A stretch of 64,000 nucleotides of DNA from Pedococcus bigeumensis (GTDB lineage: Bacteria; Actinomycetota; Actinomycetes; Actinomycetales; Dermatophilaceae), in the NCBI RefSeq assembly GCF_006438965.1, contig NZ_RCZM01000003.1, positions 372,001 to 436,000 on the forward strand, written 5' to 3'. Each line of letters opens with the position of its first letter. Position 1 is the stretch's first letter. Of the stretch, positions 8,191 through 62,783 are shown piece by piece. The position numbers and the translations under genes are program-made. The notes below the pieces were generated by a model. It had not been told where the DNA came from, ran no database searches, and saw only the letters and a program-made list of their open reading frames with translations.

Positions 8191-8246
8191 GACCCCAGCG
8201 TGCGCCGAACCCCGCTCAGTCACAAGGCCTCTTGGACAGCAGCGGT

Positions 8247-9269: not shown

Positions 9270-9365
9270 GGAGGCGTGCAGGCGCCTGGTGGCCCTCCCG
9301 GTCTTCAAAACCGGTGCAGCCAAGCACCTCGGCTGGGCGGGTTCGATTCCCGTCCGCCTCCGCCA
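9270..9365 (+). tRNA. selC: tRNA-Sec (TCA)
   Basis: A 93-nt tRNA plus encoded CCA. The anticodon loop CTTCAAA carries TCA, read on UGA. The acceptor strands GGAGGCG/CGCCTCC and the long variable arm (CAGCC/GGCTG stem) are selenocysteine-tRNA features, as is the TTCGATT T loop. It lies between selD and selA, so all four Sec components are together. Confidence 0.95.
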
Positions 9366-30707: not shown

Positions 30708-30790
30708 GCGCGAGTGGCGGAACGGCAGACGCGCTGCGTTCAGGTCGCAGTGTCCGAAAGGGCGTGGGGGTTCAAATCCCCCCTCGCGCA
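30708..30790 (+). tRNA. tRNA-Leu (CAG)
   Basis: Acceptor GCGCGAG/CTCGCGC, anticodon stem CTGCG/CGCAG around TTCAGGT (anticodon CAG), a class II variable arm (TGTCCGAAAGGGCG) and T loop TTCAAAT. CCA is not encoded (CACAC follows). It closes the conserved block; everything to its right in the window is accessory. Confidence 0.95.
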
Positions 30791-30825
30791 CACAGGGTGG
30801 TTCAGAGAAATCTGATCCACCGGTT

Positions 30826-32037: not shown

Positions 32038-32667
32038 CTAGACGTCGAAGTCGTCAGGAAACAGTCGCACCTGCGAAATGTGATCCAAGATGTCTGGGAT
32101 CGGCCCCGGCACGGTCACCTCGACCACCGGGTCTGCCGAGCGCCCCCGAAACCTCGCCCAGTAGTCGTAGTCGTAGTCAGCGATGAGTTGGAACGTGCTT
32201 CGGCCCCGTCTTGGGAGGCCAGGAACGTGAACGTCGCCAGAGTTGTACGGCGACAGTTCGATGATGTCACCGTAGGCAGACACCAACGACGCAGTGTCGA
32301 CGCTCAGCACGACTTGGGGCGTATTGCGGTAGTTCCTTCCCTTCACGATTCTCATAAGCCTGTCCTCGGTCGCCCAGAAAAAGCAGCGTCCATCGAGGAT
32401 GTCTAGGAAGTCCTGCTCCGTGGTGTCCTCGTGGAGGACCTGGTTGAGGAACTTGAGGGGTTGTTGGTCGCGGATAACGACCGTGTGATCGGAACCGGGG
32501 ACGGTGTACACCGTGCTTCGCCGCCGTGCGCCCGTGAAGTCGGCCCCCACCAGATCGCGCAGCATCGCGGTTGGCAGGAGTCCGTGCGTCTGGATGGAGT
32601 CCCAGGCCCGCGCGTCTGCTGTATGGAACACCTGGGGATGACGATCGATGAGGGTTTCGGCAAGCAC
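32038..32667 (-). CDS. DUF7002-like protein, possible ADP-ribosyltransferase-type fold
   Basis: A 209-aa protein. The N-terminus HPQVFHTADARAWDSIQTHG with GLLPTAMLRDL fits the DUF7002 pattern (His ... Trp-x-x-Ile-x-x-x-Gly-Leu-Leu) and loosely recalls the NAD-binding start of DarT-like ADP-ribosyltransferases. Later, FFWATEDRLMRIV and STFQLIADYDYDYW are further ordered parts. Toxin or enzyme function is only a hypothesis; no antitoxin is evident, although the MazG-like gene starts 59 bp away in the opposite direction. Confidence 0.6.
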   Translation of the reverse strand: MLAETLIDRHPQVFHTADARAWDSIQTHGLLPTAMLRDLVGADFTGARRRSTVYTVPGSDHTVVIRDQQPLKFLNQVLHEDTTEQDFLDILDGRCFFWATEDRLMRIVKGRNYRNTPQVVLSVDTASLVSAYGDIIELSPYNSGDVHVPGLPRRGRSTFQLIADYDYDYWARFRGRSADPVVEVTVPGPIPDILDHISQVRLFPDDFDV

Positions 32668-32726: not shown

Positions 32727-33332
32727 GTGCTGCTCGGACAGGTGACCCTCGATCTGAGTGGCATCATGGACGACCTCCCCGCGTCGAGTAGCGACCTGTC
32801 GGCGCCTCCGTGCACTCGCGCGCCGGACCTGTTCCTGGAGCAGCCGTTGCCCCTAGACGTTGAGGCTCCGTCGAACAGCTGGCAGTCCACGCTGAGTCCC
32901 GCCCCGCATCCTGGGCGGACGGCTCAGCACGTGTACGCCTTCCATCGTGCGTTCGATCTTCCCCGGCGCGCGGCCCCTGTGTCGCCGAGCCTGGGCGAGG
33001 TTGAGGACAGCCTGCTGCGGTTGCGCGAGCGGCTACTGGAGGAAGAGACCACCGAGTACATGGTGGCCTCGCACCGGCGGGACCTAATCGGCATGGCTGA
33101 CGCGCTGGCGGACATCGTCTACGTGGCGTATGGGACGGCGATCAGTCTCGGGCTCGACTTGGACCTCTTGCTGGACGAGGTCCACCGCTCGAACATGAGC
33201 AAACTCGATGAGCATGGGGAACCTGTCCTGCGTGACGACGGCAAGGTGATGAAGTCGCCCCGTTACGAGAAGCCGCGCATCGCTGCGACCCTGAATGCAC
33301 AGAGGGTTCTGCCGTTCGCTGAGGACCTCTAG
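32727..33332 (+). CDS. MazG-like all-alpha NTP pyrophosphohydrolase
   Basis: A 201-aa protein. Residues 1-65 are a Pro/Ser-rich extension; the all-alpha NTP-PPase domain starts near residue 68. The metal-binding motif is EExxE (Glu106, Glu107, Glu110), followed by Asp125 and Asp129 in MADALADIVYVAYG. The C-terminal EVHRSNMSKL...GKVMKSPRYEKPRI is typical of DR2231-like/phage MazG enzymes that cut (d)NTPs to monophosphates. It ends 20 bp from the tail of the PurZ-like gene, which would use a purine monophosphate. The true start may be internal; GTG 32727 is the first. Confidence 0.8.
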   Translation: MLLGQVTLDLSGIMDDLPASSSDLSAPPCTRAPDLFLEQPLPLDVEAPSNSWQSTLSPAPHPGRTAQHVYAFHRAFDLPRRAAPVSPSLGEVEDSLLRLRERLLEEETTEYMVASHRRDLIGMADALADIVYVAYGTAISLGLDLDLLLDEVHRSNMSKLDEHGEPVLRDDGKVMKSPRYEKPRIAATLNAQRVLPFAEDL

Positions 33333-33352: not shown

Positions 33353-34975
33353 CTACGTCAGTACGTGCCCGCGCCAGTCACGGCGGTCGATCACCGCGCG
33401 GGTTGAGAACTTCGTGGAGATCAGTGACACAGGTGCACCGGCTACCCGTTCGACCTCCTCAAGAAACTGAATCGTCTCGCTGGTGAGTTGGTCGAACCGG
33501 TACGCGTTCTGGTTCTCCTTGTCGAGATAGTCAACGAAGGTGATCGCGATGTCGGTTGCGCCGTTTACATCGGCCGCCCATCTCAGCAGGGTCCAGTCGA
33601 ACTCCGCCACGCGCCGCTGATTGTTGGACACGGACCCGCGCTCGACGATGACGTCACGGGGCAGCCCGGACCGGCTGGCGATGTCCTCCCAGGTCAGCTC
33701 CTTGCCACCCATGGGCCCAGAAGGCCCGCCGACGCGGATCGGGTAGGTGCGGAAGGCGACGATCGTGCGCCGAACGCGGCGCGAACTGATGCCTGCTTCG
33801 CTGAGGACCCCCGCAGCGGTGGTGTCGCGGCTCGTCACGTGGGGATACTGGCCATGGAACAGGCTGAGTCCCGTTCCTTGGGTTCCTTCGAGCAACACTC
33901 GTTGACCTGCGGCGAACGTCTCAGCCAGCACCTGACGAGCAGACCCGAGGAAGGGTTTGAGGTCCTCGCATCCCTCCGCCAAGATGCTGCGGTCGCCGTC
34001 GCGACCAAGGATGCGTCGAGCCGCTGCCTGTCCAACGCCCTGCCCGGTGCTGCCGATTGCGGCTTTGAGTCTCTTCTCGGCTGCCACGTCCTCCGGCGTG
34101 ATGACCATCGCTTGAGGATCGATGATCAGACGCCGGGGGTCGACACCCGTCTCCGCGAACTCTTCGAACAGCACGCGGGGGCTGATGACGGCGCCGGGAC
34201 CGATGAGAAGGCGAGCACGCTGATTTGCGCTAGCCCCGGACGGAATGGAGCGATGAGTGTTCGTTTCGGGGGTGGGCACTTGATGTCCGGCGTTGGGGCC
34301 ACCGACCCGCATGAGCAGGTCATACTCGGGAGCAAGGTAGAACGCCAAGTTCCCCTTGCCCTCAGAGCCGTACTCGCCGCCCACGAGGATGTCGACGAGG
34401 GCGGCGTCTAGGTCGGCGAGAAGTCCCAGTCTTGCTGCGCAGCGAACGAGTATGTCCGCCTGGGTGTTTCGGTGCGTGTCTAGAACTAGGTCGGCGTGCT
34501 GTGCCAACGACGGCACCTCAGACTCGGTCCGATTTTCTTGGACGGCCCGGTAGGACCCGAGTTCGTGCAATTCGCTTTCGGTTCGCCTCCTGTCGTATCG
34601 GTCGGCCAGTTCGCCGACGTCGGAGGAGAACAGGTGGACGTGCCAGACGCGACGTCCGAATCGCTCGCGCAGTGCCTCGATCTGGCCGAGCACGCGCACT
34701 GAGTCAATGACCACCAGCGGTTCGTCGCCTTGCGCAACCGTCGTGACGTCCTCCGCTAGCCAGGCGCCGCCGTCCTGACCGTCTAGGTGCTCACCAAACT
34801 CTTGGAGGGCCCGCCGTTCGTTTAGGTCACCTGCCTGGTGCAACGCGGCGAAGCGTTCTTGGAGCAGGAGTCGCGTCCTGACGACGCGGGCGGAGTACTC
34901 CACCTTCAGCCCCGCAGCTAGCGAACTCTTGCCCGCGGCCACAGGCCCGGACAGCACCACAATATTTCGCGCCAT
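33353..34975 (-). CDS. P-loop kinase fused to a PurZ-like adenylosuccinate-synthetase homologue
   Basis: A 540-aa fusion. Residues 1-185 are a P-loop kinase-like domain (GPVAAGKSS, residues 10-18). Residues 192-540 are an adenylosuccinate-synthetase fold in which the catalytic GDEGKG loop reads GSEGKG (203-208), so Ser204 replaces the catalytic Asp. Other motifs are PNAGH (227-231), IGSTGQG (307-313), EGTQG (363-367), TSRDTT (381-386) and PIRVGG (412-417). The Ser substitution and RVGG/TSRD forms are those of phage PurZ, which joins Asp to dGMP for 2-aminoadenine (Z) DNA, not of bacterial PurA. The fused kinase could phosphorylate the product. Substrate is inferred. Confidence 0.8.
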   Translation of the reverse strand: MARNIVVLSGPVAAGKSSLAAGLKVEYSARVVRTRLLLQERFAALHQAGDLNERRALQEFGEHLDGQDGGAWLAEDVTTVAQGDEPLVVIDSVRVLGQIEALRERFGRRVWHVHLFSSDVGELADRYDRRRTESELHELGSYRAVQENRTESEVPSLAQHADLVLDTHRNTQADILVRCAARLGLLADLDAALVDILVGGEYGSEGKGNLAFYLAPEYDLLMRVGGPNAGHQVPTPETNTHRSIPSGASANQRARLLIGPGAVISPRVLFEEFAETGVDPRRLIIDPQAMVITPEDVAAEKRLKAAIGSTGQGVGQAAARRILGRDGDRSILAEGCEDLKPFLGSARQVLAETFAAGQRVLLEGTQGTGLSLFHGQYPHVTSRDTTAAGVLSEAGISSRRVRRTIVAFRTYPIRVGGPSGPMGGKELTWEDIASRSGLPRDVIVERGSVSNNQRRVAEFDWTLLRWAADVNGATDIAITFVDYLDKENQNAYRFDQLTSETIQFLEEVERVAGAPVSLISTKFSTRAVIDRRDWRGHVLT

Positions 34976-44988: not shown

Positions 44989-47829
44989 ATGGCAGATGTG
45001 GCTCAAAGCAGCACAATCGAGTTGCTGCAGTACCTCCATGATGCCCTCGCCTCCCACTTCCACATGCTGCATGCTAAGCGGGCCAGCTTGGAGCCAAGTT
45101 CGCCTGTATTCGCGCTTGAACACGACCTGTCGCCTGAGGACGTTGACCTCCTCAAGACAAGTGTCCGCGCAGCGGTGCAGACCGGTCTGGGAGCGCGTCA
45201 CCGACAATGTTGGCTGCCATTTGTCGTGTATGCGGCGGAGTCGGGCTACGACTACGTCGGTGACGAGTACTGGCGGAGCTTCGAGCGGTCCACGCCGGGA
45301 TGGCGGGACGACCACCGATCTTGGATCAAGATGTGGTTTCAGAGGTTCGCCACCGAGTATGGCGGTGCTGTTCCGACGGGCGCCTTCGCCTCGACCTTCA
45401 CGATCATCGCTTGGCCCATCACACACGGCGTCCTGCCGAGGTACCTTCAGCGTCAGCTTGCCCAACTGCTGTTCGAGTTCAGTGGCGCGCTCACGTCGGA
45501 CCTGCTTGACGATCCGGCGGCGCTAGGGCTTCGCCTGGCGCGTCGAGCATCGACTTACACGGAGAGGTTCCGCATCTTCTGCGAGAACACGACCCTCGTG
45601 GGACAGGTGGCCACTGCACTGCTGTCCGGGAAGGACGAGCCGACCCCCTACCTACTGCCGTCGACATTGGATCGGATTCTCGCTGATCTGTTCAAGGAAC
45701 ACCAAGCGCGCCACTGGCTGAAGTCCGCGCAGCAATCCGCCACCCGTGCCCGTGGCTTCCGCTCGGTCAATTCAATAGGCCAGCCCAGTAGCAAGGACAG
45801 GGCACTATCACGGGCCTCCGATCCTCGGCTCATCCTGAAGTTCGAAACCGAATGGAACGGTTACGCCGAGTTGCCGGACCTGACACCGCTCGGAGTGGGG
45901 CTTCCTGATGTCTTTAGCCAACTCCGAACCTCGCGTGGGCTTGTAAACGGGGGCGCGCGACATGTGCCGCCAAGTGGGCTTCTCTATCCAGGGCAGGAGG
46001 TGCGCTTCGCAAATTGGCCGCGCCCTGATGCTCCGTTCTTACAACTCGACCGGGCTGAGGAGGGCGTTAACCGAGTCTTGGCCGACCAGTGCGCTATCAG
46101 CCAGGGGCCTTGGTGGCTCTTTCGGCGCCAAGGGTCCGGCCTGGCCCTAGAGGTCAAGGGAAAGTTCGTCCGACCAGGCCACCGCTATGTCCTGGTCGGA
46201 GCGGGCTCGGTCGAAGCCCCGCAGGTGTCGTGGGGCAGGGAAGTTGCCCTCGCGGCCGAGGGTGCCCGCGCCTACGAACTCGTCGTTCCCGAGCAGATCA
46301 ATGAGTCGGATGAGGCCGTGCTCACGGCCAGCGGCATCGGGGTGGTCTCGCACGTCTCGATCCGTCCGGTCGGCGTCGTCGCGAGCGCCTGGGATGGGGA
46401 AGGCGATGTCGAATGGCTGGCCGGAGAGCCAGGCATTCTCGGTATTCGGTCAGACCTACTGCCCAAGCACTGCCGCCTAACGATTGATGGTGCCGTGTAC
46501 CTTCTCGACTGGTCACCGGAGCACGTCGAGCTCCTGCTTTCGCTTGAGGGTCTACCCGTTGGCAGCCACTCCGCGACGGTCTCTCTGCTTGGAGATAGTG
46601 AGCGACAGGTGGCCACGGGTTCACTCATCATCACTATCCGCGACCCGCGAATCCGCCCTGAGGGCGCATGGGTCGGAGAGGGCATCAGGATGCTGGCGGC
46701 GCCCGCCCGCCCGACCCTCAGCGAGTTGTGGGACGAGCGGGTAGGCCTCACCATCGACGGGCCGACGGGTTCTGAGGCTGAGCTTGTCGTGACTCTGCGC
46801 GACGCAAACGACGTGCCCCTTGTAGACGTAAAGCGCTCGATCAAGCTGCCGGTCGACGAGGACCAGTGGAGGGCGACCGCTAGGGCGCTCCGCAAGGACC
46901 AGCGCTTCAGCGATGCATACGACGAAGCGGAGTCGTGTGTCGTGACCGTGTCTAGAGAAGGCATCGGATTCGCGTCGCTGACGTGTGAGCGTGGGTTCCA
47001 GCCGCTGCGCTGGCGCTTCGCTCGAACGCACGATGGCGCGGTCATCGCGCACCTTATAGACCGCACGGATGGAGGGAACACCACGATCCAGTTCTTCGAC
47101 GTCGAGACTCCTCTGGTGCCTGTGCCGAAATGCGCCGATGCCCCGATCCCCGTTCCCCCCCGTGGTGGCCTCGCAATCGCACGCTCCGGCGAATCGGCAG
47201 CAGCCGTCATTCTGCCGACCGATCCGAACACGGTCTTCCGGCTGCCCCGCGCCATACCCTCGGTTTCGGCAAGGACCCGCACCTCCAACGAGATCCGCCG
47301 TCTGGCAGCAGGTCACGCTGAGTGGCTGGCGGCGGACCTCCCGGCCGACGCGTTCGCGACCTACGAGCAGCAGTTGGTCGGCGACGCGATTGCACGGGCA
47401 ATTGGGACACTCATCGGGGGCGGCCACTGGGCCCAACTAGAACGGCAACTGGCCACGGCTTCTGACCCCGCCGATCACCTCGAAGCCATGCAGGCCGCGG
47501 TTGGTGCATCGGCGTCCCAGAAGGAACTGGCTTCAACCATCGCCTTCAGCCTCTATAGGTGGCTCACGCCGGACGCCCTACTGCTGGGATTCGACAAGGT
47601 CATTGCGCCCCACCTCGCGGCCTGTGGCGTCATTCGTAAGCCAGGTGCAGCTCGGTTCCTGCTGATGCTCGCCGGTCGGCCGGGATACATCGGTGAGTGG
47701 GAGGCCAGTGAAGCGGACTTCCTTATCAACCGTGTGCTGCTGTCGCCCATGCTGTACCGGGCTGCGAGGTTCGCCGTCATAGGGACGCGGGCACTCAATG
47801 ATGCCGATGGCGTGGATAGGAGCTTCTGA
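44989..47829 (+). CDS. Large unknown protein, first gene of the Druantia-like locus
   Basis: A 946-aa protein from ATG 44989 with GGGGAGG upstream. The N-terminal 250 residues have WIKMWFQRFATEYGGAVPTG and IIAWPITHGVLPRYLQRQLA, a strongly patterned helical region. The middle (residues 330-720) is beta-rich, with repeated strands and Gly/Asp turns like beta-sandwich modules; the end is helical. No enzymatic motif found. The 1-bp overlap with the next gene and coupling to the helicase suggest it is a core component. It could be a remote DruB/DruC counterpart or a new part. Confidence 0.78.
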   Translation: MADVAQSSTIELLQYLHDALASHFHMLHAKRASLEPSSPVFALEHDLSPEDVDLLKTSVRAAVQTGLGARHRQCWLPFVVYAAESGYDYVGDEYWRSFERSTPGWRDDHRSWIKMWFQRFATEYGGAVPTGAFASTFTIIAWPITHGVLPRYLQRQLAQLLFEFSGALTSDLLDDPAALGLRLARRASTYTERFRIFCENTTLVGQVATALLSGKDEPTPYLLPSTLDRILADLFKEHQARHWLKSAQQSATRARGFRSVNSIGQPSSKDRALSRASDPRLILKFETEWNGYAELPDLTPLGVGLPDVFSQLRTSRGLVNGGARHVPPSGLLYPGQEVRFANWPRPDAPFLQLDRAEEGVNRVLADQCAISQGPWWLFRRQGSGLALEVKGKFVRPGHRYVLVGAGSVEAPQVSWGREVALAAEGARAYELVVPEQINESDEAVLTASGIGVVSHVSIRPVGVVASAWDGEGDVEWLAGEPGILGIRSDLLPKHCRLTIDGAVYLLDWSPEHVELLLSLEGLPVGSHSATVSLLGDSERQVATGSLIITIRDPRIRPEGAWVGEGIRMLAAPARPTLSELWDERVGLTIDGPTGSEAELVVTLRDANDVPLVDVKRSIKLPVDEDQWRATARALRKDQRFSDAYDEAESCVVTVSREGIGFASLTCERGFQPLRWRFARTHDGAVIAHLIDRTDGGNTTIQFFDVETPLVPVPKCADAPIPVPPRGGLAIARSGESAAAVILPTDPNTVFRLPRAIPSVSARTRTSNEIRRLAAGHAEWLAADLPADAFATYEQQLVGDAIARAIGTLIGGGHWAQLERQLATASDPADHLEAMQAAVGASASQKELASTIAFSLYRWLTPDALLLGFDKVIAPHLAACGVIRKPGAARFLLMLAGRPGYIGEWEASEADFLINRVLLSPMLYRAARFAVIGTRALNDADGVDRSF

Positions 47830-48917
47830 TGGGGGTCACCAGGCTAACGGCAGACGACGCATCCGTTCTGGCGGTGGAGACGTTAGGACTCGACTCCGGC
47901 TCGATCGAGCTGATATCAATCGAGGGCATCGCTGCATCGCTCCGAAGGGCCGCGTCGTTCATGTGCCCTACGAGCCCTAGCCGCCTGGTTGACGCCGTCT
48001 TGGGCGCCCTCCGTCCCCTTGCTGCAACGGAGGTCGAACGCACCGACGTCGCTGATGTACTGGAACTGCTGGTCGCATCGGGTGACCTTCTGGAGCTCCG
48101 TCAGGAGAGTGGCCGGTCCATTCGTTTGCTTTACCTTGCTCCACCCTCGTACATCGAGCGGCGGCCGGGGAGCTTCTTGCTCATGGGGATTCGGCCATTC
48201 GGTATCTCGATACTTGAGGGCGAACTTCGGAAAGCGATCGAGTACGAGGGCCACACCCGGGTGCTAGAGCTGGACCCGGATACCGGGGCGGAGCAGTTGC
48301 GGCAATTGGAACTCCGGCCCGTCAGGAAGGACCGCTGGGTGTCGACTCCGGCTCTCGAAGCACCACCCGGTCTCATCGAGCGTTATCGAGCACGTTTGGA
48401 CGTGTCGGGAGATGCGGGGCGGCTCGATGGCCTTGTGATTCTCGACGCGGAATCATCAGTCCGCTACTACCGAGGACGTTGGCGGGCACCGACATCACGC
48501 GACAACGGCGACATGGTTGCGCGCCGACCGCAGGCCTATGGGGCTGACCTATGGTGTCTAATCCGGTTCGAGTCCGGTGTGCCCGGGCGGCTTATGGAAT
48601 TTCCAGCGGATGACCCCGTCCTGCCGGGCCGTGATGAGGCGTGGCGCTATCAAGCCGCGGTGGATGCGCTGCGCGGCGCGCCGCAGCGATTCCGTGTTCG
48701 TCGTGGGTCGACGCCCGAAGACGACACGACTTTCGACTTTTTCGGGCCGTTGCCAGGTTTTGCGGCCAGATATCTGCAGATCGCAGGACTCGCGCTCGGA
48801 AAGACCCAGGGCGCGCTGTTTTCGTTCCGCGTCCCGCTCGCGGCAACTCAAGACGTGAGCGCGTTCTTGACTGACATGCTTTGGATGGACCAAGAGGAGG
48901 CAGCACGTGGCGTCTGA
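47829..48917 (+). CDS. Unknown protein, second gene of the Druantia-like locus
   Basis: A 362-aa protein overlapping the previous stop by one base (TGATG). Residues 35-110 look like winged-helix DNA-binding units (DVADVLELLVASGDLLELR). The rest is mixed alpha/beta, with SVRYYRGRWRAPTS and FDFFGPLPGFAARYLQ. No known family. It overlaps the helicase gene by 11 bp, so translation of the set is likely linked. Confidence 0.78.
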   Translation: MGVTRLTADDASVLAVETLGLDSGSIELISIEGIAASLRRAASFMCPTSPSRLVDAVLGALRPLAATEVERTDVADVLELLVASGDLLELRQESGRSIRLLYLAPPSYIERRPGSFLLMGIRPFGISILEGELRKAIEYEGHTRVLELDPDTGAEQLRQLELRPVRKDRWVSTPALEAPPGLIERYRARLDVSGDAGRLDGLVILDAESSVRYYRGRWRAPTSRDNGDMVARRPQAYGADLWCLIRFESGVPGRLMEFPADDPVLPGRDEAWRYQAAVDALRGAPQRFRVRRGSTPEDDTTFDFFGPLPGFAARYLQIAGLALGKTQGALFSFRVPLAATQDVSAFLTDMLWMDQEEAARGV

Positions 48918-51900
48918 AGCCCCGACGATCGCCGAGACGATCGACGAGATACAAGCGGCCCTGCGGGACTACATCGAGGCGACTTACCACGTCGGCAACC
49001 CCACCGTGATTGAGCAGCGGCGGCAATTGCTCAAGACGGAGGGCGTGCTCTTTAAGGCGCCATACATCGAGAGCACACCCCGCTACCAAACCAATCGTCG
49101 GTTCGGCGATCTCGAGCTCAACGCCGCCGTCCACCAGTTGTTCGGCATGCTTACCCAGAAGGTTGGTGACCTCGACCGTCTCCTCTATGACCCGCCGTAC
49201 ACACACCAGGCCGAGGCGTTGGAGTGGACCTCCCGAGACGGTAAGAGTTTGGCGATCACCACCGGAACTGGCTCTGGAAAGACCGAGTCCTTCCTCCTGC
49301 CCATGCTGGCTAAGTTGGCAACGGAGGCAGCACAGCGACCCGCATCGTTCCAAGCGCCCGCAGTCCGGGCTCTGATCCTCTACCCCATGAACGCGTTGGT
49401 GAATGACCAACTCGGCCGACTCCGTCTGCTCCTCGGCGATGCTCGCGTCACGACGCAGTTCCAGGCGTGGGCAGGTCGACCGCCGAGGTTCGCTCGCTAC
49501 ACGAGCCGCACGCTGTATCCGGGAGTGCGGACAGTTAAGAAGGACCAGCAGCGCTTGGGCTCCATCGAGGACTTCTACATCCTCCTTATCAACCAGGCAG
49601 CCGACCCAACGTCCCCCTGGCACCAAGAGGCTAAGGCGCTCAAGGACAAGCTGGAGAAGCGCGGCAAGTGGCCTGCCAAGCCGGATCTCAAGGCATGGTT
49701 CGGCCAAAAGGGATCTCGCTGGCAGGACAAGGACGGCAACTTCGTCCGTGCTGTCATGCAGCCGGATGATCCGGAACTCCTGACTCGTCATGAGGTCTTG
49801 GCTGCACCCCCGGACGTCCTCATCACGAACTACTCAATGTTGGAGTACATGCTGATGCGGCCGCTGGAGCGCCCGGTTTTTGACCACACGCGCCAGTGGC
49901 TTGCCGACAACCCCGAGGAGAAGTTTCTACTCGTAGTCGACGAGGCACACCTCTACCGGGGCGCAGCAGGTGCCGAAGTGGCGCTCCTCCTCCGTCGCCT
50001 TCGCGCCCGCCTTGGGATCTCGTCCGAGCGACTTCAGATCATCACCACAAGCGCCAGCTTTACGACCGCCGAGTACGCGCGATCATTTGCCGCCCAGCTG
50101 ACAGGAAAGGATCCCGACGACTTTCGGACGGTAACGAGCAAGTGGGCGCTCCGCGATGGGGCATCCACTGGTTCGGCTACGGACGCTGCCATGCTGGCTG
50201 AGTTCGCCCTGGACGACTTCTACGCGGCAGAGACCGATGCCGAGCGCGCGGCGGTCGCATCAAGGGTCTTAAGTGAGCGTGGCGTAGGGGATCTGGACCG
50301 CGGCATCGGGTCATTGTTGGATGAGGCCCTCGGTTCATACGGGCCGATGAGCCTGCTCGTCAACGAGACTATGCAGAAGGCGCAGCCGCTCAGCGAACTT
50401 GGCAATGTCATCTTCCCGGGCGTCGACGCCCCAGTAGCGGACAAGGCCGTGACAACTCTCGTGGCGCTCGGTAGCGCGGCAAGGCGGAGGCCCGATGAGG
50501 CTGGTCTGCTGCCCTGCCGCGTGCACGCCTTCTTTCGTGGCCTCCCTGGACTTTGGGCCTGCCTCGACCCCGAATGCGATGCCGTAGATCGACACACCCT
50601 GCCACCTGCCCTCGGACCCATCGGCAAGTTGTTTGCCCAGCCTCAGGCAACGTGCGATTGCGGCGCTCGTGTATTCGAGTTCTACACGTGTCGCCACTGC
50701 GGGTCGGCCTACGCGCGGGCCTATACCGACAGTCTTCAGGACCCGTCCTTCCTATGGCACGAGCACGGAGGTGCATTCCAGAGCACTGCTGGTGCGATCC
50801 CGGAACTGTTCGCATTGGACCTCCTACTCGAAGAGCCGTCCGCCGGACAGGTAGAGGTTGTTGAGATCGACCTCGTGACCGGCCGCCTCAATCCGCCGAA
50901 ACCACCAGCCCGAAGCCGAGTCGTGTTCATCCCCAAGCTTCGCAGCGGCGAAACGGTCACCGGCGACGACGAGGATGACGACGCCGATGACCGGGCCGAG
51001 GCCACCGGAGAATTCAAGCCTTGCGGCGTGTGTGGTCAACTGGCTGGTTTCGGACGTTCATCGGTCCAGGACCACCAGACAAAGGGCGACCAGCCGTTTC
51101 AAGCGCTGGTCACTCGCCAAATCGAGGTACAGCCGCCGAGCGCCCCGTACTCGGACTTTGCCCCCTTGCGGGGTCGCAAGGTGTTGGCATTCTCCGACTC
51201 GCGTCAGGTCGCCGCCCGGCTCGCCCCGAACTTGCAGGCCTATTCGATGCGCGACGTGATTCGGCCCCTGATCCTGAAGGGGTGGACCGACCTAGCCGCC
51301 CAACCGGGCATCGGCGAGCAACTCAGCCTTGAGCGGCTGCATCTGGCTGTGATGGTGGGAGCGAAACAGCTCAGGGTGCGATTGAGACCCGAGTTGCGTC
51401 AGGCAGAGTCGCTTCACGTCTTGGGCGATGTTGGCCGAGCCATCGACAAGGGCGCACTAACCGGCAACATCGCCGCCACGATGGAACTACTGATGCTCAC
51501 AGCTCAGCCGCCTCAAGCACTCCTTCGCGCGATGTACCTGACACTCACCGACAAGTACTACGGACTGACGTCTCTGGGACTCGCGTCCCTGCGCGAAAAG
51601 GCCAGCATGACTGATGAACTGTTGGCCCAGTTGCCCGCCATAGATGGGGTCGCGTCCAGCAACGATGAACGGCTCGCACTGCTCCGCCTGTGGCTTGCCC
51701 AGTGGTCGACCCCGGCACGCGGCATCTGGTTTCCTTCGATGACGGAGGAGTGGTGGCGGCAGAAGGGCGGCGTCAAGCCACACTCGGGCAGGTTCCAGAT
51801 CATTGAGCGCTGGCTCGCCACTCCGGCGGCCAAGAAGGTCTTCAAGGAGTCGTGGCTTCCCACCCTCCTCACCAAGTTCTGCGAGCAGACGGGTTCGAAG

Positions 51901-54477
51901 TACCGGATGTTGGCGGGCAACGTCGGTCTCGACCTCGGCGGCATGTGGGGCTACTGCGAGCGCTGTCGCTTCACGCAGCGTCCGTTCCCTGGATCGTCCA
52001 AATGTGTGAGCTGCGGTGCTGACCGCGTCCGGACCCTCGACCCGGAGACGGACGAGGTTTTCCAAGCACGGAAAGGCTATTACCGGGGCAGCGCAGAACG
52101 TGCGCTGCGGACGCCCGAGAAGCAGATCATGAGCATCATCGCGGCCGAACATACCGCCCAACTCAACGCAGCCCAGTCCGACGCCGTCTTCTCGCGCGCA
52201 GAAGAGTACGAACTGCTGTTCCAAGACGTCAACGTGGGCTTGCCTCGCCCGGGAGAGCATGAACGGGCAGCGATCGACGTGCTGTCTTGCACGACCACGA
52301 TGGAGGTCGGCATCGACATCGGCAGCTTGTCAGGTGTCGCTCTACGCAACATGCCGCCGTCGCGAGCCAACTACCAGCAGCGAGCTGGTCGGGCGGGCCG
52401 CCGAGGCAATGCGATCGCGACCGTCGTGGCGTTTGGAAGCGCCGACACTCACGACGACCACTACTTCCGCAACCCCGACCTCATGATTCGCGGTCAGGTC
52501 GACGACCCGATCTTGACGCTGGACAACGACGAGATTGCTCGACGGCACCTCATCGCATATCTGCTCCAGCGCTACAACGAAGACCGGCTACCTCAGATCG
52601 AACCCGAGGATCAGCCACAATTGTTTGCGGTGCTGGGAACAGTTCGCGGCTTTGTCGGCACGACCTCACCGCTGAATCGCACCGACTTCGAGGAGTGGTT
52701 GAAGGAGCACGAGGCGACCCTTCAAAGCGATGTCGATTCGTGGCTGCCCGCGGAACTGACGATTGAGGATCGAAGAGGGCTCCTTGGCGGGCTGGTATTC
52801 CGCACACTCGACGAGATCGATAAGGCACTCGACATAGAACCGAACGGCAAACTGCCCGAGCCCGAGCGAGGCGACGTGACGCCGGAAGCTGAGGAGGTCG
52901 ACGAGGGCGAGTCAGGTGAGGATGGTGCTGAACTCCCCAGCGAGCATCGAAGCCAGACGAACCTTCTTGACCGCCTTCTGTACAAGGGAGTGCTGCCTCG
53001 ATACGCCTTTCCAACGGACGTTGTCGCCTTCCACGTCTTCGATCGGGACAAGTCGGAGCCGTTTCGCACTGAGTTCCGCTACGCACCGAGCCAAGGCCTG
53101 CCGGTCGCGCTAAGCCAGTACGCTCCGGGCAAGGTGGTGTGGATCGACAACAAGGAGTGGACCTCCGGCGCGATCTACGCCCCAGTTCACAAAGAGCGGT
53201 TTCAGGCATGGCGCGACAAATGGCTCTACTTCGAGTGCCAGGTCTGCCACTACGCCAAGCACTTTCCGTATGACCAAGCCGAACGCGGCGAGGAGCGTGA
53301 TTGTCCGGCGTGCGGCGCGGTGGGCAAGTTTGGTAAGGCGATGAACTGGATGCGCCCGCCCGGCTTTGCCCACCGCGCGAATGACGAACCTGGTACCAGC
53401 CCAGACGATGCCCCGGCGAATAGCTATGCAACGCGGGCCAAACTGGTTGCGGAAGGCCCGGAGGAAGACGAAGCCTGGGACCACGTTGCGGATCGTGTGG
53501 AGCAGACTTATCGCAGGGACAAGCTCCTGGTCACCAACACGGGCCCCCGCGGCGAGGGCTACAGCTACTGCACACGATGCGGCCTGATCGAGCCCACCAA
53601 GGGTGCAACCGGAATCGTCGCGGGGACCCACCCGAAGCCGTATCCCGACGAGCGGGAGCCGGATTGCCAGGGCTCGGCGGCAACGCGGGGCCTGGTGTTG
53701 GGAACGGACTTCATCTCGGACGTCCTGCTCGTGCGCTTGACGGTCGAGGAGCCGATCACCCTGCGACCTGAACTGCTCTCGACCCAGGTGGCCCTTCGAA
53801 CCATCGCAGAAGCGCTCACCATTGCGGCCACCGGAGAACTCGATATCGATGCCAGCGAACTTCAAGCCGAGTACCGTCCGGCGCTTACCCCTGGCGGGAA
53901 CCACGGTCTGGAGGCGGAGATCTACCTGTACGACACCTTGGCCGGTGGCGCGGGCTTCACTCGCCGGGTGCATGGCTACGGCATCTCGATATTCCAGAAG
54001 GCGCTGGAGCGGCTGGAGGCTTGCCCGGCCAATTGTGACGCCTCGTGCTACCGGTGCCTGAGGAGCTTCCGCAACCGGTTTGAGCACGGGCTCCTAGACC
54101 GCAAGGTCGGTGCCGCGCTCCTTAGGTACGTCCTTGACGGCACCATTCCGACGCTCGACGCCGTGCGTGTGAATCAATCGATTGACAGGCTCCTGGCTGA
54201 TCTACAGAGCCGCGGTATCGAGGGCGTGGAGTTCTTGAAGAACCAAGCAGTCGAGATCGATGGCCTGGGCACCGTCACGGCTCCCATTCTGGTTCGCGAC
54301 AAGGGTCGTGAGCGCATCTTCTACATTCATAGCCCGCTCACGCGCGACAGGCCGCCCTCCCGGGACCTATGGGACGCCAAGGAGTTGGGTGGTGTACCGG
54401 TGTACCCGATCGACGATCTGGTGGTCATGCGGAACCTACCCGTCGCCAGCCAGCAGGTACTGCGATGGCTGACCTGA
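48907..54477 (+). CDS. Giant DEAD/DEAH-box helicase with DUF1998 (MZB) domain, DruE-like
   Basis: An 1856-aa superfamily 2 helicase. Walker A is GTGSGKT (residues 120-126), motif Ib LYPMNALVNDQ, Walker B DEAH (345-348), motif III TTSAS. The C-terminal helicase half has TTTMEVGIDIGSL and QQRAGRAGRRG (about 1157-1166). Four zinc ribbons lie around residues 555-600, 1015-1040, 1440-1480 and 1540. The C-terminal DUF1998 Cys cluster CPANCDASCYRC is near 1706. Size and layout match DruE of Druantia more than DrmA/DrmB of DISARM. GTG start; the last 13 bp overlap the nuclease gene. Confidence 0.88.
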   Translation: MASEAPTIAETIDEIQAALRDYIEATYHVGNPTVIEQRRQLLKTEGVLFKAPYIESTPRYQTNRRFGDLELNAAVHQLFGMLTQKVGDLDRLLYDPPYTHQAEALEWTSRDGKSLAITTGTGSGKTESFLLPMLAKLATEAAQRPASFQAPAVRALILYPMNALVNDQLGRLRLLLGDARVTTQFQAWAGRPPRFARYTSRTLYPGVRTVKKDQQRLGSIEDFYILLINQAADPTSPWHQEAKALKDKLEKRGKWPAKPDLKAWFGQKGSRWQDKDGNFVRAVMQPDDPELLTRHEVLAAPPDVLITNYSMLEYMLMRPLERPVFDHTRQWLADNPEEKFLLVVDEAHLYRGAAGAEVALLLRRLRARLGISSERLQIITTSASFTTAEYARSFAAQLTGKDPDDFRTVTSKWALRDGASTGSATDAAMLAEFALDDFYAAETDAERAAVASRVLSERGVGDLDRGIGSLLDEALGSYGPMSLLVNETMQKAQPLSELGNVIFPGVDAPVADKAVTTLVALGSAARRRPDEAGLLPCRVHAFFRGLPGLWACLDPECDAVDRHTLPPALGPIGKLFAQPQATCDCGARVFEFYTCRHCGSAYARAYTDSLQDPSFLWHEHGGAFQSTAGAIPELFALDLLLEEPSAGQVEVVEIDLVTGRLNPPKPPARSRVVFIPKLRSGETVTGDDEDDDADDRAEATGEFKPCGVCGQLAGFGRSSVQDHQTKGDQPFQALVTRQIEVQPPSAPYSDFAPLRGRKVLAFSDSRQVAARLAPNLQAYSMRDVIRPLILKGWTDLAAQPGIGEQLSLERLHLAVMVGAKQLRVRLRPELRQAESLHVLGDVGRAIDKGALTGNIAATMELLMLTAQPPQALLRAMYLTLTDKYYGLTSLGLASLREKASMTDELLAQLPAIDGVASSNDERLALLRLWLAQWSTPARGIWFPSMTEEWWRQKGGVKPHSGRFQIIERWLATPAAKKVFKESWLPTLLTKFCEQTGSKYRMLAGNVGLDLGGMWGYCERCRFTQRPFPGSSKCVSCGADRVRTLDPETDEVFQARKGYYRGSAERALRTPEKQIMSIIAAEHTAQLNAAQSDAVFSRAEEYELLFQDVNVGLPRPGEHERAAIDVLSCTTTMEVGIDIGSLSGVALRNMPPSRANYQQRAGRAGRRGNAIATVVAFGSADTHDDHYFRNPDLMIRGQVDDPILTLDNDEIARRHLIAYLLQRYNEDRLPQIEPEDQPQLFAVLGTVRGFVGTTSPLNRTDFEEWLKEHEATLQSDVDSWLPAELTIEDRRGLLGGLVFRTLDEIDKALDIEPNGKLPEPERGDVTPEAEEVDEGESGEDGAELPSEHRSQTNLLDRLLYKGVLPRYAFPTDVVAFHVFDRDKSEPFRTEFRYAPSQGLPVALSQYAPGKVVWIDNKEWTSGAIYAPVHKERFQAWRDKWLYFECQVCHYAKHFPYDQAERGEERDCPACGAVGKFGKAMNWMRPPGFAHRANDEPGTSPDDAPANSYATRAKLVAEGPEEDEAWDHVADRVEQTYRRDKLLVTNTGPRGEGYSYCTRCGLIEPTKGATGIVAGTHPKPYPDEREPDCQGSAATRGLVLGTDFISDVLLVRLTVEEPITLRPELLSTQVALRTIAEALTIAATGELDIDASELQAEYRPALTPGGNHGLEAEIYLYDTLAGGAGFTRRVHGYGISIFQKALERLEACPANCDASCYRCLRSFRNRFEHGLLDRKVGAALLRYVLDGTIPTLDAVRVNQSIDRLLADLQSRGIEGVEFLKNQAVEIDGLGTVTAPILVRDKGRERIFYIHSPLTRDRPPSRDLWDAKELGGVPVYPIDDLVVMRNLPVASQQVLRWLT

Positions 54478-55698: not shown

Positions 55699-57681
55699 TC
55701 ACGCCTCGTGCCGAGCGCGGCTTGGCATCGGCAGGTCTCCATTATCGGTCGGTAAGGGGACGCGGGCCCCATGCTGGATCGGCCGGACCAGTCGGTGCTC
55801 ACGCATCGTCTCCCGGACTTGATCTTGGGCTGCGCGGTTGCGCGCCCACCGATCGAACCACCAACTGGCCACTGCCTCTCCGGCGTCGTGCGGTTCCGGG
55901 TCGAGCAGATACTGGGGCTCTGGGTCGATACCGAGCGAGTAGTCGCGCAAGTTCTCGACGAGCGGCACGCCGTACAGGATGCGTTCACGCCCATGCTTGA
56001 GCAGGTCGTTGGCCGACCAGCCGAGCGAGGCTAAGCCAAGCCGTACTTTGCGCAGGCGTGGACTAACGCCCTCGCCGAACAGACTGTTAACCCGGACAAG
56101 CCCACCGGTGTGCTCTGACAGCCGCACCAAGGCTTCAACGGTCTCATCAGAGAAGTGTGAAGTCCCGAACGAGCGCGAGCGACCAAGCTTGTGGAAGCCA
56201 ATTCGGGACTGCTCGGAACCACCGACGGCGGAGGCGGGCCAGAACAATCGGTTGTACTGACTCGATCCAGTCCCATACAGCGAAGTGGTTCCCACGAAGG
56301 CCAGTCGAGCCTCCCGGGTGATCGGACGACCGGCCATTGCCGAAGCTATCTCGCTCGGGCGCGAGTACTTGGCCCGGTAGGCCCCCAACATCTGCGGTGA
56401 TGCAGCCAAGGCCCCAACCAGCTTGCCTGCTGCCAAGGAGTTGTATGGCGCAACGGCGCCGCACACGGTGAGATCCGCGATGACAGTGCCGACGCGCTCA
56501 CCTCGGGCCCGCCGCGATATCCGCCCGATCTGCGCTTTCGCCCTCGGGTCAGCCAGGGCCTTGCGGAGACCGGCAGCGGTGGGCCTATCGCCTAAGTAAC
56601 TGCCCAACAGTCTTTGAATATCGAGAGTCTCCGCGAGGACTGATGATCGCTTTGAACGAAAGAGATGCGATTCGGCTCGCTCGACCCAGGCATCGGTCTG
56701 GATGTTGCGAACTTCGCGGATCGTCCCCCCACGATGGTGTTTCGCCCGATGGCGCTCTGCGTCGGCCTTGAGCCGAGCGACGACATCCTGCGTCGGGGCC
56801 TTCAGGTCGTTCGGTTGCAGCACACCGTCGCGAAGCAGGTCCTCGACATAGAGTTCGCGCTTCTGCGTCTTGATGCGTCGCCCCAGCCAACGAGCCACTT
56901 CATCCGTCGGTTCACGTTCCAGGGCCGCAACGAACTGCTTGGTGTCCCAGCCCATCCAGGTGTCACGTTCAGCAATTTGGACGACGGGACTGGAGATCGC
57001 AGCCAGGCCGATCACGGCGTGATACTGCGTAGCAGCGTCACGGATCAGGATGGGCATGGAGCGCCCGGGCACGGTCGAGTAGGCATTCGACCAGGTGTGA
57101 CGGAAGTAGCGCCAGACGTCATGCAACCTGAAGCCGGTTAGTTCGCAGATCGCGGAACCATCCACGATCTGGATGTACGGCTGGATTGTGTTCCGATCGT
57201 CAAGGTTTGCCTCAAGCGAATCGGCAAGTTCGCGCCCATCACGCATCAGGTTAAAGATTGACACCAGTCTGTCGTTGTACTGATGGGGCCGTTCCATGCC
57301 TTCCACGAACCTGCGCACGCTTGGCTGCCGAAGCTGGGCGTCACGGCGAAGGTGTTCCTGTCGCCGGATGCGCGCTTTCTCGGTGGCGCGCTCGGCCTGC
57401 GTTTCGGGAGGGCTAAGGAGGGGCCCATGCCTGTCCACCTGGGCTGTCCAGCCTTGATCGACCAAGTCGATAACCGTGTGTGCGGCTGCGGCCAGCCGTG
57501 GTTGGTTGTAGATGTCACCGAGTTCCGCGGCGGCAATCCAGAAGGCGTGATCGAGTCCCGCGTCGGCGTCGAAACCCGCACGCGCGAGCAGAGTGCACAG
57601 CCGGGTGAAACCGCGTCGCTCTTTCGCTGTTGCTCCCGGTGGAAGTGCCAGCGGGATGTACTTCGAGTCGTCTTCTCTCAT
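55699..57681 (-). CDS. DruA-like (DUF4338) protein
   Basis: A 660-aa protein. Residues 165-250 carry PYIQIVDG..., VPGRSMPILIRDAA, AVIGLAAISSPVVQIAERDTWMGWD, recalling the RDxxIGW core of the DruA/DUF4338 family. The second half has CGAVAPYNSLAAGKLVGAL (407-425) and TTSLYGTGSSQYNRL (465-479), the strongest conserved block. DruA marks type I Druantia, but E. coli DruA is shorter (about 400 aa). It overlaps the GHKL ATPase stop (ATGA), so the two form an operon facing the helicase operon. Confidence 0.62.
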   Translation of the reverse strand: MREDDSKYIPLALPPGATAKERRGFTRLCTLLARAGFDADAGLDHAFWIAAAELGDIYNQPRLAAAAHTVIDLVDQGWTAQVDRHGPLLSPPETQAERATEKARIRRQEHLRRDAQLRQPSVRRFVEGMERPHQYNDRLVSIFNLMRDGRELADSLEANLDDRNTIQPYIQIVDGSAICELTGFRLHDVWRYFRHTWSNAYSTVPGRSMPILIRDAATQYHAVIGLAAISSPVVQIAERDTWMGWDTKQFVAALEREPTDEVARWLGRRIKTQKRELYVEDLLRDGVLQPNDLKAPTQDVVARLKADAERHRAKHHRGGTIREVRNIQTDAWVERAESHLFRSKRSSVLAETLDIQRLLGSYLGDRPTAAGLRKALADPRAKAQIGRISRRARGERVGTVIADLTVCGAVAPYNSLAAGKLVGALAASPQMLGAYRAKYSRPSEIASAMAGRPITREARLAFVGTTSLYGTGSSQYNRLFWPASAVGGSEQSRIGFHKLGRSRSFGTSHFSDETVEALVRLSEHTGGLVRVNSLFGEGVSPRLRKVRLGLASLGWSANDLLKHGRERILYGVPLVENLRDYSLGIDPEPQYLLDPEPHDAGEAVASWWFDRWARNRAAQDQVRETMREHRLVRPIQHGARVPLPTDNGDLPMPSRARHEA

Positions 57682-59129
57682 GACTTCTGCAGCATCCGTC
57701 CGTAGGTGCTACCCCAAGCGTGGAGAAGATCATCCAGGCGGTGGCCCGCCCGTTCCATCTGGACCGCAGTTCGCGCGAACGACAGCAGGAGCAATTCAAT
57801 AGAGGTCCGGAGCTCCGCTGCCGCCTCGCTGTCGATGGACTGCAGCGGCTGATACAGAGCTGAGAAGGCTGGATGGTCGGTGTTGAGGGTTAGCGAGAGC
57901 GTCCGCTGCGCAAGCGTCGAGCGAAACATCACCTCCATCGGGAGCACATCGGACGAAATTCGGTACTGGATGGCGCCCCCTCTCGCGCGTGAGGGGATAA
58001 TCGGTAGGTCCGGGTCGACCGCGGTCGCGATGCGACACGACGCCTCGGCAGCGGACTGAAACTTCAGATCCTCGAATGCCTGGCGCACCTTCGCGTTCAG
58101 GAGGCGGGCGATCGATTCTAGTTCGGGCTCTATGGCATGGCGGAGTGCCCTCGAAGGGCGGATGCCCTGCTTGTTGATCGTGATGCCAAAGTGCTCGTCA
58201 AGGATGGGGTCAAACTCGATCTCGCAGCGCCACCAGTCGTCATAGTTCTCCTTGCGCTTGGAACCCATGAGGTGCCAACCGCTCGCGATTTCACGACCCG
58301 CGCGCAGGATCGAGACACCCCCGCCGCCGACGATCCCTACCCGCCGCTTCGTCACGTTATCGAGGTGCTGCCAGCGCTGCACTGGGAGCATGGCGAAGCG
58401 CACCGTCACGACGGAGGAGTCGCCCCCGCTCGTCTCCAACTCGTACTCAAGCTGATCGAATGCCAGGCTGGCGGCAGCACCCTCAAGCTTGGTCGTGAGC
58501 AACATGGGATCGACCGCCTCCACCGGTGACCCATTGATGGTCATGTTGAAGCCCGCTGTGAGGAAGCGCCGGTACATACGTCCGAGGTCGCGATGCAGAG
58601 ACCGCTCCAGCCACGCCAGTCGGCGATACTCGATGCGGTCACATTCCATCCAGCGCACTCGACAACCGGAGTCGCTGGTGCTGAAAGCCCCGCGGTGAGC
58701 TCCGATCGCGGGATCACTTCCGGCCACGATCGCATCGACGTCGAGGGTGACGGACTGCTCGGACTTGTGGTTCTGCCACGCGGTCACCTCCACGCGTCGA
58801 GCCTGGCTGAGGCTCGCTGCGGGGAGACCCATGCCGAAGCGACCGAAGGACTTCCGCGCGTCGAAGCGGGTGGAGCCCCCGAATCGCAGGCACAGTTCGA
58901 GTTCGACCTTGGACATGCCGACGCCGTTGTCTTCCACCACGATCTGGGGAAGAGCGTCCGATGTGATGCGGCTGATCGTGATGGCGACCGCGGTGGCGCA
59001 CGCCTGCAGGGAGTTATCGACTAGTTCAGCCAGGGCCGTTGAGATGCTCAGGTACCCAGACTCACGAACCGCCCGAATGAAGTTCGCGGAGACCAGGAGA
59101 TCGTCAACTCGTTCCGGTCGTCGGCTCAT
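57678..59129 (-). CDS. GHKL (Hsp90/MutL/histidine-kinase-type) ATPase
   Basis: A 483-aa protein from ATG 59129. The Bergerat ATP fold is intact: N box ELVDNSLQA, G1 VEDNGVGMS, G2 FGRFGMGLPAASLS. There is no DHp or receiver domain, so it is not a sensor kinase; it resembles the stand-alone Hsp90-like or MORC-type ATPases common in defence islands. After the ATPase a second domain has GGGGVSILRAGREI and TINKQGIRPSRALRHAI, as in MutL/GyrB-like transducers. Coupled to the DruA-like gene by a 4-bp overlap. Confidence 0.88.
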   Translation of the reverse strand: MSRRPERVDDLLVSANFIRAVRESGYLSISTALAELVDNSLQACATAVAITISRITSDALPQIVVEDNGVGMSKVELELCLRFGGSTRFDARKSFGRFGMGLPAASLSQARRVEVTAWQNHKSEQSVTLDVDAIVAGSDPAIGAHRGAFSTSDSGCRVRWMECDRIEYRRLAWLERSLHRDLGRMYRRFLTAGFNMTINGSPVEAVDPMLLTTKLEGAAASLAFDQLEYELETSGGDSSVVTVRFAMLPVQRWQHLDNVTKRRVGIVGGGGVSILRAGREIASGWHLMGSKRKENYDDWWRCEIEFDPILDEHFGITINKQGIRPSRALRHAIEPELESIARLLNAKVRQAFEDLKFQSAAEASCRIATAVDPDLPIIPSRARGGAIQYRISSDVLPMEVMFRSTLAQRTLSLTLNTDHPAFSALYQPLQSIDSEAAAELRTSIELLLLSFARTAVQMERAGHRLDDLLHAWGSTYGRMLQKS

Positions 59130-59221
59130 GACTCTCCGTATGTCGTGGCGAAACTGTCTGGGGTCAGAGTAGCTGCCCGTCTGGCTGGTGCGCACCTTGT
59201 GCGCGAGTCCGAAGCGTCACG

Positions 59222-62763: not shown

Positions 62764-62783
62764 ATGTAGTTGATCGACTACAT
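62764..62783. promoter_or_regulatory. Palindromic operator-like site ahead of the integrase
   Basis: A 20-bp inverted repeat, ATGTAGTTGATC and GATCGACTACAT sharing the central GATC, matches itself at 18 of 20 positions. It lies 64 bp before the chosen start of the integrase-like gene and overlaps a TACATA hexamer, so it may control that gene or serve as a recombination site. Confidence 0.6.

Follow-up and report, generated by a model that had tools for sequence, protein, structure and literature searches.

A kinase-PurZ fusion protein beside a predicted DarT-like ADP-ribosyltransferase in an accessory region of Pedococcus bigeumensis

The window analyzed here, a stretch of 64,000 nucleotides of Pedococcus bigeumensis (contig NZ_RCZM01000003.1, positions 372,001 to 436,000), encodes on its minus strand a protein of 540 aa in which a P-loop kinase is joined to a synthetase related to PurZ, the phage enzyme on the way to 2-aminoadenine (Z) DNA. 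The gene (33353..34975, minus) begins with ATG and was characterized from its open reading frame (ORF), family scans, an AlphaFold2 model and trees. The fusion is a real, conserved protein and more than a chance ORF. Residues 1–190 (34406..34975, minus) form a domain resembling nucleoside or deoxynucleoside monophosphate kinases (NMP or dNMP kinases), recognized through Foldseek and the phrog_139 matches of homologues. Residues 191–540 (33356..34405, minus) form the PurZ-type synthetase domain, recognized through profile matches, fold, trees and the alignment of its pocket. A MazG/PRA-PH-type nucleotide pyrophosphohydrolase of 201 aa (32727..33332, plus) is encoded next to it, followed by a DUF7002 protein of 209 aa (32038..32667, minus; PF22531, E 1.1e-50), for which AlphaFold2 and Foldseek predict a DarT-like ADP-ribosyltransferase. 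The MazG-type gene lies antisense between the DUF7002 gene and the fusion gene, an arrangement that is the same in Terrabacter. Neither of these two neighbours figured in the original prediction. The fusion and the DarT-like enzyme probably belong to an undescribed cassette of the defence type.

The fused protein and its genomic setting

The motifs quoted in the original prediction are all found in the synthetase half, GSEGKG at residues 203–208, IGSTGQG at 307–313, TSRDTT at 381–386 and PIRVGG at 412–417. The nucleotide-kinase-like domain claimed for the N-terminal half is borne out by the P-loop GPVAAGKSS and by a fold match. In an AlphaFold2 model of the whole fusion (predicted local distance difference test, pLDDT, 91.1; predicted template modelling score, pTM, 0.81; alignment of 27 sequences), the kinase half was matched by Foldseek in the PDB to 3lw7, an AMP-bound structure related to adenylate kinase (E 3e-6, TM 0.79 by target length), and in a viral structure library to dNMP kinases among other P-loop kinases. 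By sequence, Pfam PF13238 matched it weakly without reaching the cut-off (E 0.049 in the full protein, 0.004 for the half alone), and the window protein gave no match to phrog_139 (dNMP kinase) at E 0.01; two homologues, L059 and L062, matched that family at E 7.1e-6 and E 2.7e-4 (L numbers label the compared loci). The NMP/dNMP-kinase-like domain of residues 1–190 is weak by sequence and clear by predicted fold. Related kinases also occur outside the fusion. A stand-alone member of the same family (E 1.7e-34) lies at 6780–7343 of L154, where 15 kb were examined and contained no synthetase, and on the prophage-like contig L077 the fused gene is immediately preceded by another, separate kinase-domain copy (7992–8549).

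The suggested accessory region also agrees with the genomic setting. A tRNA-Leu (30708–30791) precedes the fusion-gene region, the G+C content is 0.57–0.67 past this tRNA vs 0.69–0.71 before it, Druantia genes lie beyond, and the kinase part is unmatched in 57 related genomes. In those genomes residues 1–177 had no match and all matches lay within residues 178–488, in the synthetase part, and the fusion gene therefore looks like a local acquisition. A canonical PurA is encoded separately in the same genome (599.5 bits).

Placement of the synthetase domain and its pocket

The synthetase half matched Pfam PF00709 with 168.5 bits and the PurZ family phrog_1211 with 221.7 bits. It missed the cut-offs of the NCBIfam models for PurZ (NF038379, 186.1 bits, cut-off 300) and for archaeal PurA (NF003295, 290.4 bits, cut-off 368), and these curated models do not settle whether it is a PurA or a PurZ by sequence. 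In the PDB, Foldseek ranked the archaeal PurA 5k7x best (E 1.1e-31), with phage PurZ following among other PurA (6fko, 3.6e-26; 7odx, 1.6e-23; PurZ0 7vf6, 2.8e-23).

Two trees place the region of residues 194–534. The first contained 81 rows, 26 near-copies having been dropped from 107; in the second, of 56 rows, the catalytic motif was masked in every row and 26 of the 44 unfused viral rows were left out. Both trees agree and keep PurA apart from a PurZ clade of 48 rows that holds phiVC8, S-2L, DMU1, Ghobes, Hiyaa and Jera (support 100/100 in the masked tree, a starred 100 in the first). All members of this clade have Ser at the catalytic position of the alignment. The fused proteins form one clade of 21 rows inside it, again with 100/100 when the catalytic motif is masked, in which the window protein pairs with that of Terrabacter (100/99) and then with that of Amycolatopsis (100/98). 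Outside the PurZ clade fall two enzymes with Asp, the PurA of Pyrococcus horikoshii and the short synthetase encoded in a 7-deazapurine-like cluster of Rhizobium. The affinity to PurZ that had been proposed from the motifs is upheld by the masked tree. A position inside PurA or far from PurZ, named beforehand as the outcome that would speak against this affinity, did not occur, and the fused subclade speaks for the proposal of a new branch of the family. Since the same fusion, whole or in part, is present in seven phage-type viral-contig loci, it is a branch of PurZ and not a one-off.

Ser204 occupies the position of PurA Asp13. This alignment column has Ser in 74 and Asp in 8 of 82 rows, a count that is biased because the viral-contig rows had been picked out with two patterns and GSEG forms part of one; no such selection applied to phiVC8, S-2L, Ghobes, Hiyaa, Jera, BpsS140, DMU1 or the plasmid rows. 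According to PMC12884076, Ser is present in 100% of 147 phage PurZ, 99% of the PurA group have Asp13, and Ser or Gly occurs at the catalytic position in four archaeal relatives. The replacement of the catalytic Asp by Ser, said earlier to be known from PurZ, is a published hallmark of that enzyme (PMC12884076). The same paper has host enzymes complete the Z pathway, so that the fused kinase lies, as the original prediction stated, outside the pathway described there.

Pocket residues were those named for S-2L PurZ in PMC8342488 and were transferred by alignment. In the base pocket for deoxyguanosine monophosphate (dGMP), S-2L Gly22, Ser23, Asn49 and Ala50 correspond to Gly203, Ser204, Asn228 and Ala229, and Thr132, Gln190 and Val241 to Thr310, Gln366 and Val415; all are kept. 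Phe306, the residue stacking against the (d)ATP adenine, is likewise kept as Phe480, and S-2L Pro336 aligns with Phe523. Ser204, Ser309 and Phe480 distinguish the window pocket from that of E. coli PurA. The synthetase resembles phage PurZ (phiVC8, S-2L) in its catalytic Ser, in most of the named pocket residues and in its clade. With PurZ0 (Ghobes type, PDB 7vf6) it shares the Ser and, as in Ghobes and Jera, an Asp at the position of E. coli Asp333, yet the two belong to separate clades. Unlike PurA, it has no catalytic Asp and lies outside the PurA clade. Taken together, clade and pocket suggest that the PurZ domain would use dGMP, and the fusion protein likely makes a modified purine nucleotide.

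Distribution, partner genes and defence neighbours

Terrabacter and Amycolatopsis encode full-length relatives (61% and 56% identity, best segments), and the fusion is present in 8 of 91 matching plasmid records, all alphaproteobacterial, with 44–48% identity; among 218 matching phage records, none had it at 80% query cover. Viral contigs gave nothing when scanned with a single sequence, but alignment queries did find fusions there, one of these searches keeping the best 80 of 210 matches. In three actinobacteria, eight plasmids and nine distinct viral-contig loci a kinase part and the synthetase occur in one chain, and an artefactual fusion was thereby ruled out. Several contigs were viewed twice (L059/L072, L061/L076, L062/L075 and L063/L081); L081 begins inside the synthetase, and its kinase part is seen only as L063. 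Because the compared loci span anything from 4.5 to 18 kb and some stop at the contig end (L074, L079 and L081), an absent neighbour is weaker evidence at some of them.

Of 21 fused loci, 14 have DUF7002 next to the fusion (the neighbour survey gave 13 of 20, to which the window locus is added), vs 0 of 72 loci with an unfused synthetase; L080, a near-copy of L078, was left out of this count, and L060, with DUF7002 at the contig end, was not counted. The fused loci with DUF7002 are those of the window, Terrabacter, Amycolatopsis, all eight plasmids and the viral contigs L072, L076 and L077. The division of viral contigs into cellular and phage-type is only descriptive, since it was drawn by the DUF7002 neighbour. 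In L017, L019, L020, L023, L024, L072 and L076 the DUF7002 frame overlaps the fused gene. L077 also encodes a phage tail protein and looks like a prophage, and L072 adjoins genes that by eye resemble a type I restriction system. DUF7002 is lacking from seven phage-type viral contigs that have the fusion. A family-A polymerase occurs in four of these seven loci (L073, L075, L078 and L105) vs 23 of 72 unfused loci, three of the four having supplied the polymerase queries themselves; the three queries found no match in 13 loci with DUF7002, the window not being searched with them. The polymerase of L078 (11664–14654) is of family A with an N-terminal uracil-DNA-glycosylase domain, and the protein at 11636–14599 of L105 is a close homologue.

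Enzymes of nucleotide metabolism accompany the fusion. A MazG/PRA-PH gene is present in all three actinobacterial loci (homologues in L014 and L015), the search across loci having used the Amycolatopsis MazG as query. The window protein matches PF01503 (E 7.6e-16), phrog_671 (E 1.8e-36) and the structure of DR2231 (E 1.6e-12), which is its best solved relative; MazZ is not among the 8 structures listed. All eight plasmid loci have an HD phosphatase gene, whose product, tested for L017, matches phrog_318 (dNMP phosphatase, 1.2e-61) and weakly phrog_7076 (dATPase, 5.4e-7); no HD family was found among the window neighbours scanned with Pfam. In Amycolatopsis, a second PurB stands beside the MazG gene (367.5 bits vs a cut-off of 326.2, model 3–387 of 436), the best copy elsewhere in that genome scoring 430.6 bits. 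The MazG-type enzyme, the HD phosphatase and the second PurB fit the synthesis of a Z nucleotide. The set resembles the MazZ/DatZ cluster of S-2L in its MazG-type partner in actinobacteria and its HD-type partner in plasmids. It differs from phage PurZ and the S-2L cluster in that its loci are bacterial, plasmid-borne or prophage-like, in the fused N-terminal kinase, in the DUF7002 neighbour, in an altered aspartate loop and in the family-A polymerase not found in the 13 loci searched.

Other neighbours are shared by some loci. The eight plasmid loci have in common a conserved protein of about 455 aa, for which no Pfam match (two tested) and nothing significant in a PDB profile search were obtained; by eye it recalls an ATP-grasp protein. 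An ImmA/IrrE protein is encoded just upstream in Amycolatopsis, L072 and L076; the profile was built from L014, L015, L059 and L061, which match by construction. The ImmA/IrrE protein of L061, on the same contig as L076, carries a macrodomain (PF01661, E 1.1e-7). It aligns with its counterparts in L059 (51%) and L015 (37%), in neither of which Pfam reached a macrodomain.

Some observations concern PurZ-like genes and plasmids beyond the fused set. Eleven viral-contig loci with an unfused PurZ, several being near-copies of one another (L110, L122, L123, L128, L132, L136, L137, L140, L144, L147 and L150), also contain PurB-like genes, which suggests that some Z phages bring their own lyase. A Sinorhizobium medicae plasmid (L026, 6284–14963) has an unfused Ser-type synthetase with an HD phosphatase of the same kind and a weakly dCTP-deaminase-like protein, adjoining BilC and BilD. 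On R. leguminosarum pRLN3 (L018, 3555–6089), an 844-aa protein with an adenosine-deaminase domain (PF00962, E 4e-15) is encoded upstream of the cassette. The 7-deazapurine-like cluster on a Rhizobium leguminosarum plasmid (L025, 6357–14705) comprises FolE, a short Asp-type synthetase, PurB, QueE, IMP dehydrogenase, a nitrile hydratase subunit, QueC and 6-carboxytetrahydropterin synthase, and recalls toyocamycin clusters.

For the DUF7002 protein, the AlphaFold2 model (pLDDT 82.7, pTM 0.83) predicts a DarT-type ADP-ribosyltransferase fold. Its best PDB matches by Foldseek are M. tuberculosis DarT (2.8e-4), E. coli DarT1 (1e-3) and Thermus DarT. DarT chains take ranks 1, 2, 4, 5, 9 and 11, only one match reaching E 0.001; cholera-toxin-type ADP-ribosyltransferases are interleaved with them, and tRNA 2'-phosphotransferases come after. 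Residues invariant among 14 DUF7002 sequences include His15, Arg66, Arg103, Tyr113, Arg154 and Glu183, the last of which we take to be the catalytic Glu. DUF7002 sequence profiles do not reach the DarT chains, and a PDB profile search gave nothing significant. The predicted fold, and the macrodomain on a neighbouring protein in L061, recall DarTG1 and DarTG2. Unlike DarTG, DUF7002 has no sequence match to DarT chains, nucleotide-making enzymes are attached to it in the cassette, and no macrodomain was found in the window neighbours scanned, no search being made with a NADAR sequence. DUF7002 occurs in 13 of 396 actinobacterial genomes, that of the window included (11 over the cut-off), and in none of 14 control genomes. 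The fusion was absent from the stretches examined around DUF7002 in 11 of the 12 other genomes, so that DUF7002 is not exclusive to the cassette. By eye, it borders a DnaE-like gene in at least three loci (L040, L041 and L045) and lies near a Cas3-HD-like gene in two of L040–L048.

The recurring gene set, computed like the clade, the pocket residues and the folds, stands several times beside defence genes. In the window, DruD (47829–48917, E 1.5e-126), DruE (48907–54477, E 0), DruA (55699–57681, minus, E 1.7e-272) and an MzaB-like ATPase (57678–59195, minus) lie about 13 to 24 kb from the cassette. Among the plasmids, L017 adjoins GajB, L020 adjoins SIR2 and AbiE genes, L024 adjoins AbiJ-NTD and RelA/SpoT genes, and L023 adjoins a UvrD-helicase gene with weaker similarity to GajB. 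The annotation tables of L018 and L019 show no clear defence gene, and L021 and L022 carry no annotation. The ImmA/IrrE protein of L059 resembles CapP and RmrA of PADLOC-DB. This context suggests, without proving it, a defence role for the cassette. Among the matches listed, no paper described the gene set in its title or the start of its abstract, and the name DUF7002 was absent from the literature searched, a coverage that excludes most subscription papers and bioRxiv.

The window has further features of its own. A serine/threonine kinase (PF00069, 36567–37694) close to the cassette resembles the defence kinases mad6 and PD-T4-6. ARAGORN predicts a selenocysteine tRNA (anticodon tca) at 9270–9365. 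Near the end of the window, an ORF at 62770–63987 reads by eye like a tyrosine recombinase and could mark the boundary of an element.

A possible route to Z nucleotides and its use

On balance, we favor the view that the fusion is the key enzyme in a mobile cassette of the defence type, one that produces Z deoxynucleotides in a bacterial cell and couples them to a DarT-like ADP-ribosyltransferase. We infer each reaction, the order of the steps, the trigger and the outcome for defence. The MazG-type enzyme would cut dGTP to dGMP, to which the PurZ domain would join Asp to give succino-amino-dAMP. Adenylosuccinate lyase, either the host PurB or the copy in the Amycolatopsis cassette, would release dZMP, and the fused kinase, as its fold and the fusion suggest, would phosphorylate dZMP towards dZTP. 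DUF7002 would then act on nucleic acid, either attacking replicating DNA that contains Z or being gated by the Z nucleotide, and the infected cell would halt the replication of the phage. DarT1 attaches ADP-ribose to the amino group of guanine, N2 (PMC11543638). As 2-aminoadenine has a 2-amino group, DNA bearing Z is a conceivable target of DUF7002, and the cassette thereby gains a logic, in which dZ is made, taken up by phage DNA and attacked there by DUF7002. Expression of the S-2L Z-cluster is reported to be toxic to E. coli (PMC8342488), and this too counts in favor of the Z-nucleotide cassette. A more specific version is unlikely, though worth stating, namely that bacteria captured the viral Z pathway as an immune weapon, with dZTP made on infection and entering phage DNA or serving as a messenger, and the DarT-like enzyme ADP-ribosylating Z-DNA while sparing the adenine DNA of the cell itself, possibly at the 2-amino group by analogy with DarT1 on guanine.

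Several observations weigh against the proposed Z-nucleotide cassette. The archaeal PurA model outscores the PurZ model, both below cut-off, and the nearest solved structures by sequence and fold are those of the P. horikoshii PurA, which uses inosine monophosphate (IMP). Most of the kept pocket residues are common to PurA as well. The S-2L aspartate loop TTVT is replaced by G-S/T-V-S in 11 of 21 fused rows, that of the window included; Tyr203 and Cys204 become His379 and Val380; and Arg146, said in PMC8342488 to bind phosphate across the dimer, aligns with Gly324, the neighbouring Arg325 perhaps indicating a register shift. S-2L Gln308 is replaced by Asp482, the residue of PurA, Ghobes and Jera, a change that, together with the others in the pocket, bears on the preference for a nucleoside triphosphate. 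The DarT matches are weak (TM 0.39–0.51), with other ADP-ribosyltransferases close behind and a model built from 6 sequences, and DUF7002 stands without a PurZ-type synthetase in nine other actinobacterial loci (L040–L048). The window neighbours scanned with Pfam contained neither a macrodomain nor an ImmA domain, and none of the three cassette proteins matched a PADLOC-DB family at E <= 0.01. The fusion is also rare. Among 394 genomes of the class of Amycolatopsis it was found only in Amycolatopsis itself, one other genome having the kinase with no synthetase nearby; at most 8 candidates per genome were scored, and misses are therefore possible.

The same genes can be read in other ways. Depletion after the manner of nucleotide-depleting defences, raised in the original prediction for dGMP, in which MazG and PurZ drain the deoxyguanylate pool (dGTP/dGMP) during infection and the Z product is waste, is improbable; it accords with MazG adjoining the fusion, with the HD phosphatase of the plasmid loci and with the defence neighbours, but a fused kinase and, in one locus, a second PurB would be pointless for a waste product, and DUF7002 is left unexplained. 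We give similarly little credence to a signal in the manner of Kongming, in which no Z would enter DNA and the Z nucleotide would serve as messenger, turning on DUF7002 or some other effector. The nucleotide-modifying enzyme of Kongming is a deaminase, whereas that of the cassette is a synthetase, and the cassette differs further in its neighbours and in having its kinase fused. The likeness lies in a non-canonical purine deoxynucleotide, which for the cassette would be the proposed product, together with a dNMP kinase, and a kinase fused to a nucleotide-modifying enzyme speaks for such a signal, as does the precedent of a dITP messenger made with a phage dNMP kinase (PMC12948488). No separate nucleotide sensor protein was recognized, although none was specifically searched for.

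Protection of host or mobile-element DNA, into which the cassette would place Z and so evade restriction like Z phages, is more doubtful still. The common clade with Z phages and the phage-type fused loci with a family-A polymerase nearby are what it could build on, but the polymerase queries were unmatched in the 13 loci with DUF7002, the genome retains PurA, and the reported toxicity of the Z-cluster noted above also speaks against it. That the enzyme is a PurA-like paralogue for adenylate salvage, acting on IMP or GMP, is very improbable. The archaeal P. horikoshii PurA (2d7u/5k7x) is indeed the best solved match of the synthetase half in sequence (199 bits) and fold; that enzyme, however, has the catalytic Asp, an IMP-bound structure and no kinase. 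Set against salvage are the Ser in place of Asp, the position in the tree and the canonical PurA of the same genome, and the tree and Ser204 ruled out a canonical or archaeal PurA identity. Least credible is a role in a toyocamycin-like nucleoside biosynthetic cluster. The short synthetase of the 7-deazapurine-like cluster on Rhizobium plasmids is a precedent, but it carries Asp and is placed outside the Ser clade, and the annotated plasmid loci show no comparable set of pathway genes next to their fused genes.

In the cited literature, Z-DNA chemistry is a trait of phages. The branch of PurZ described here is chromosomal as well as plasmid-borne, comes with a kinase and, in one locus, a lyase of its own, and stands beside a DarT-like enzyme. 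If the proposed Z-nucleotide cassette is real, cells would be able to produce dZ nucleotides of their own and may turn a viral DNA alphabet into a weapon or a signal. DUF7002, a family of unknown function, would gain a testable activity, and a single protein possibly leading from dGMP to Z nucleotides would be useful in synthetic biology. The gene set recurring in bacteria, plasmids and prophage-like DNA may be an unrecognized antiviral system.

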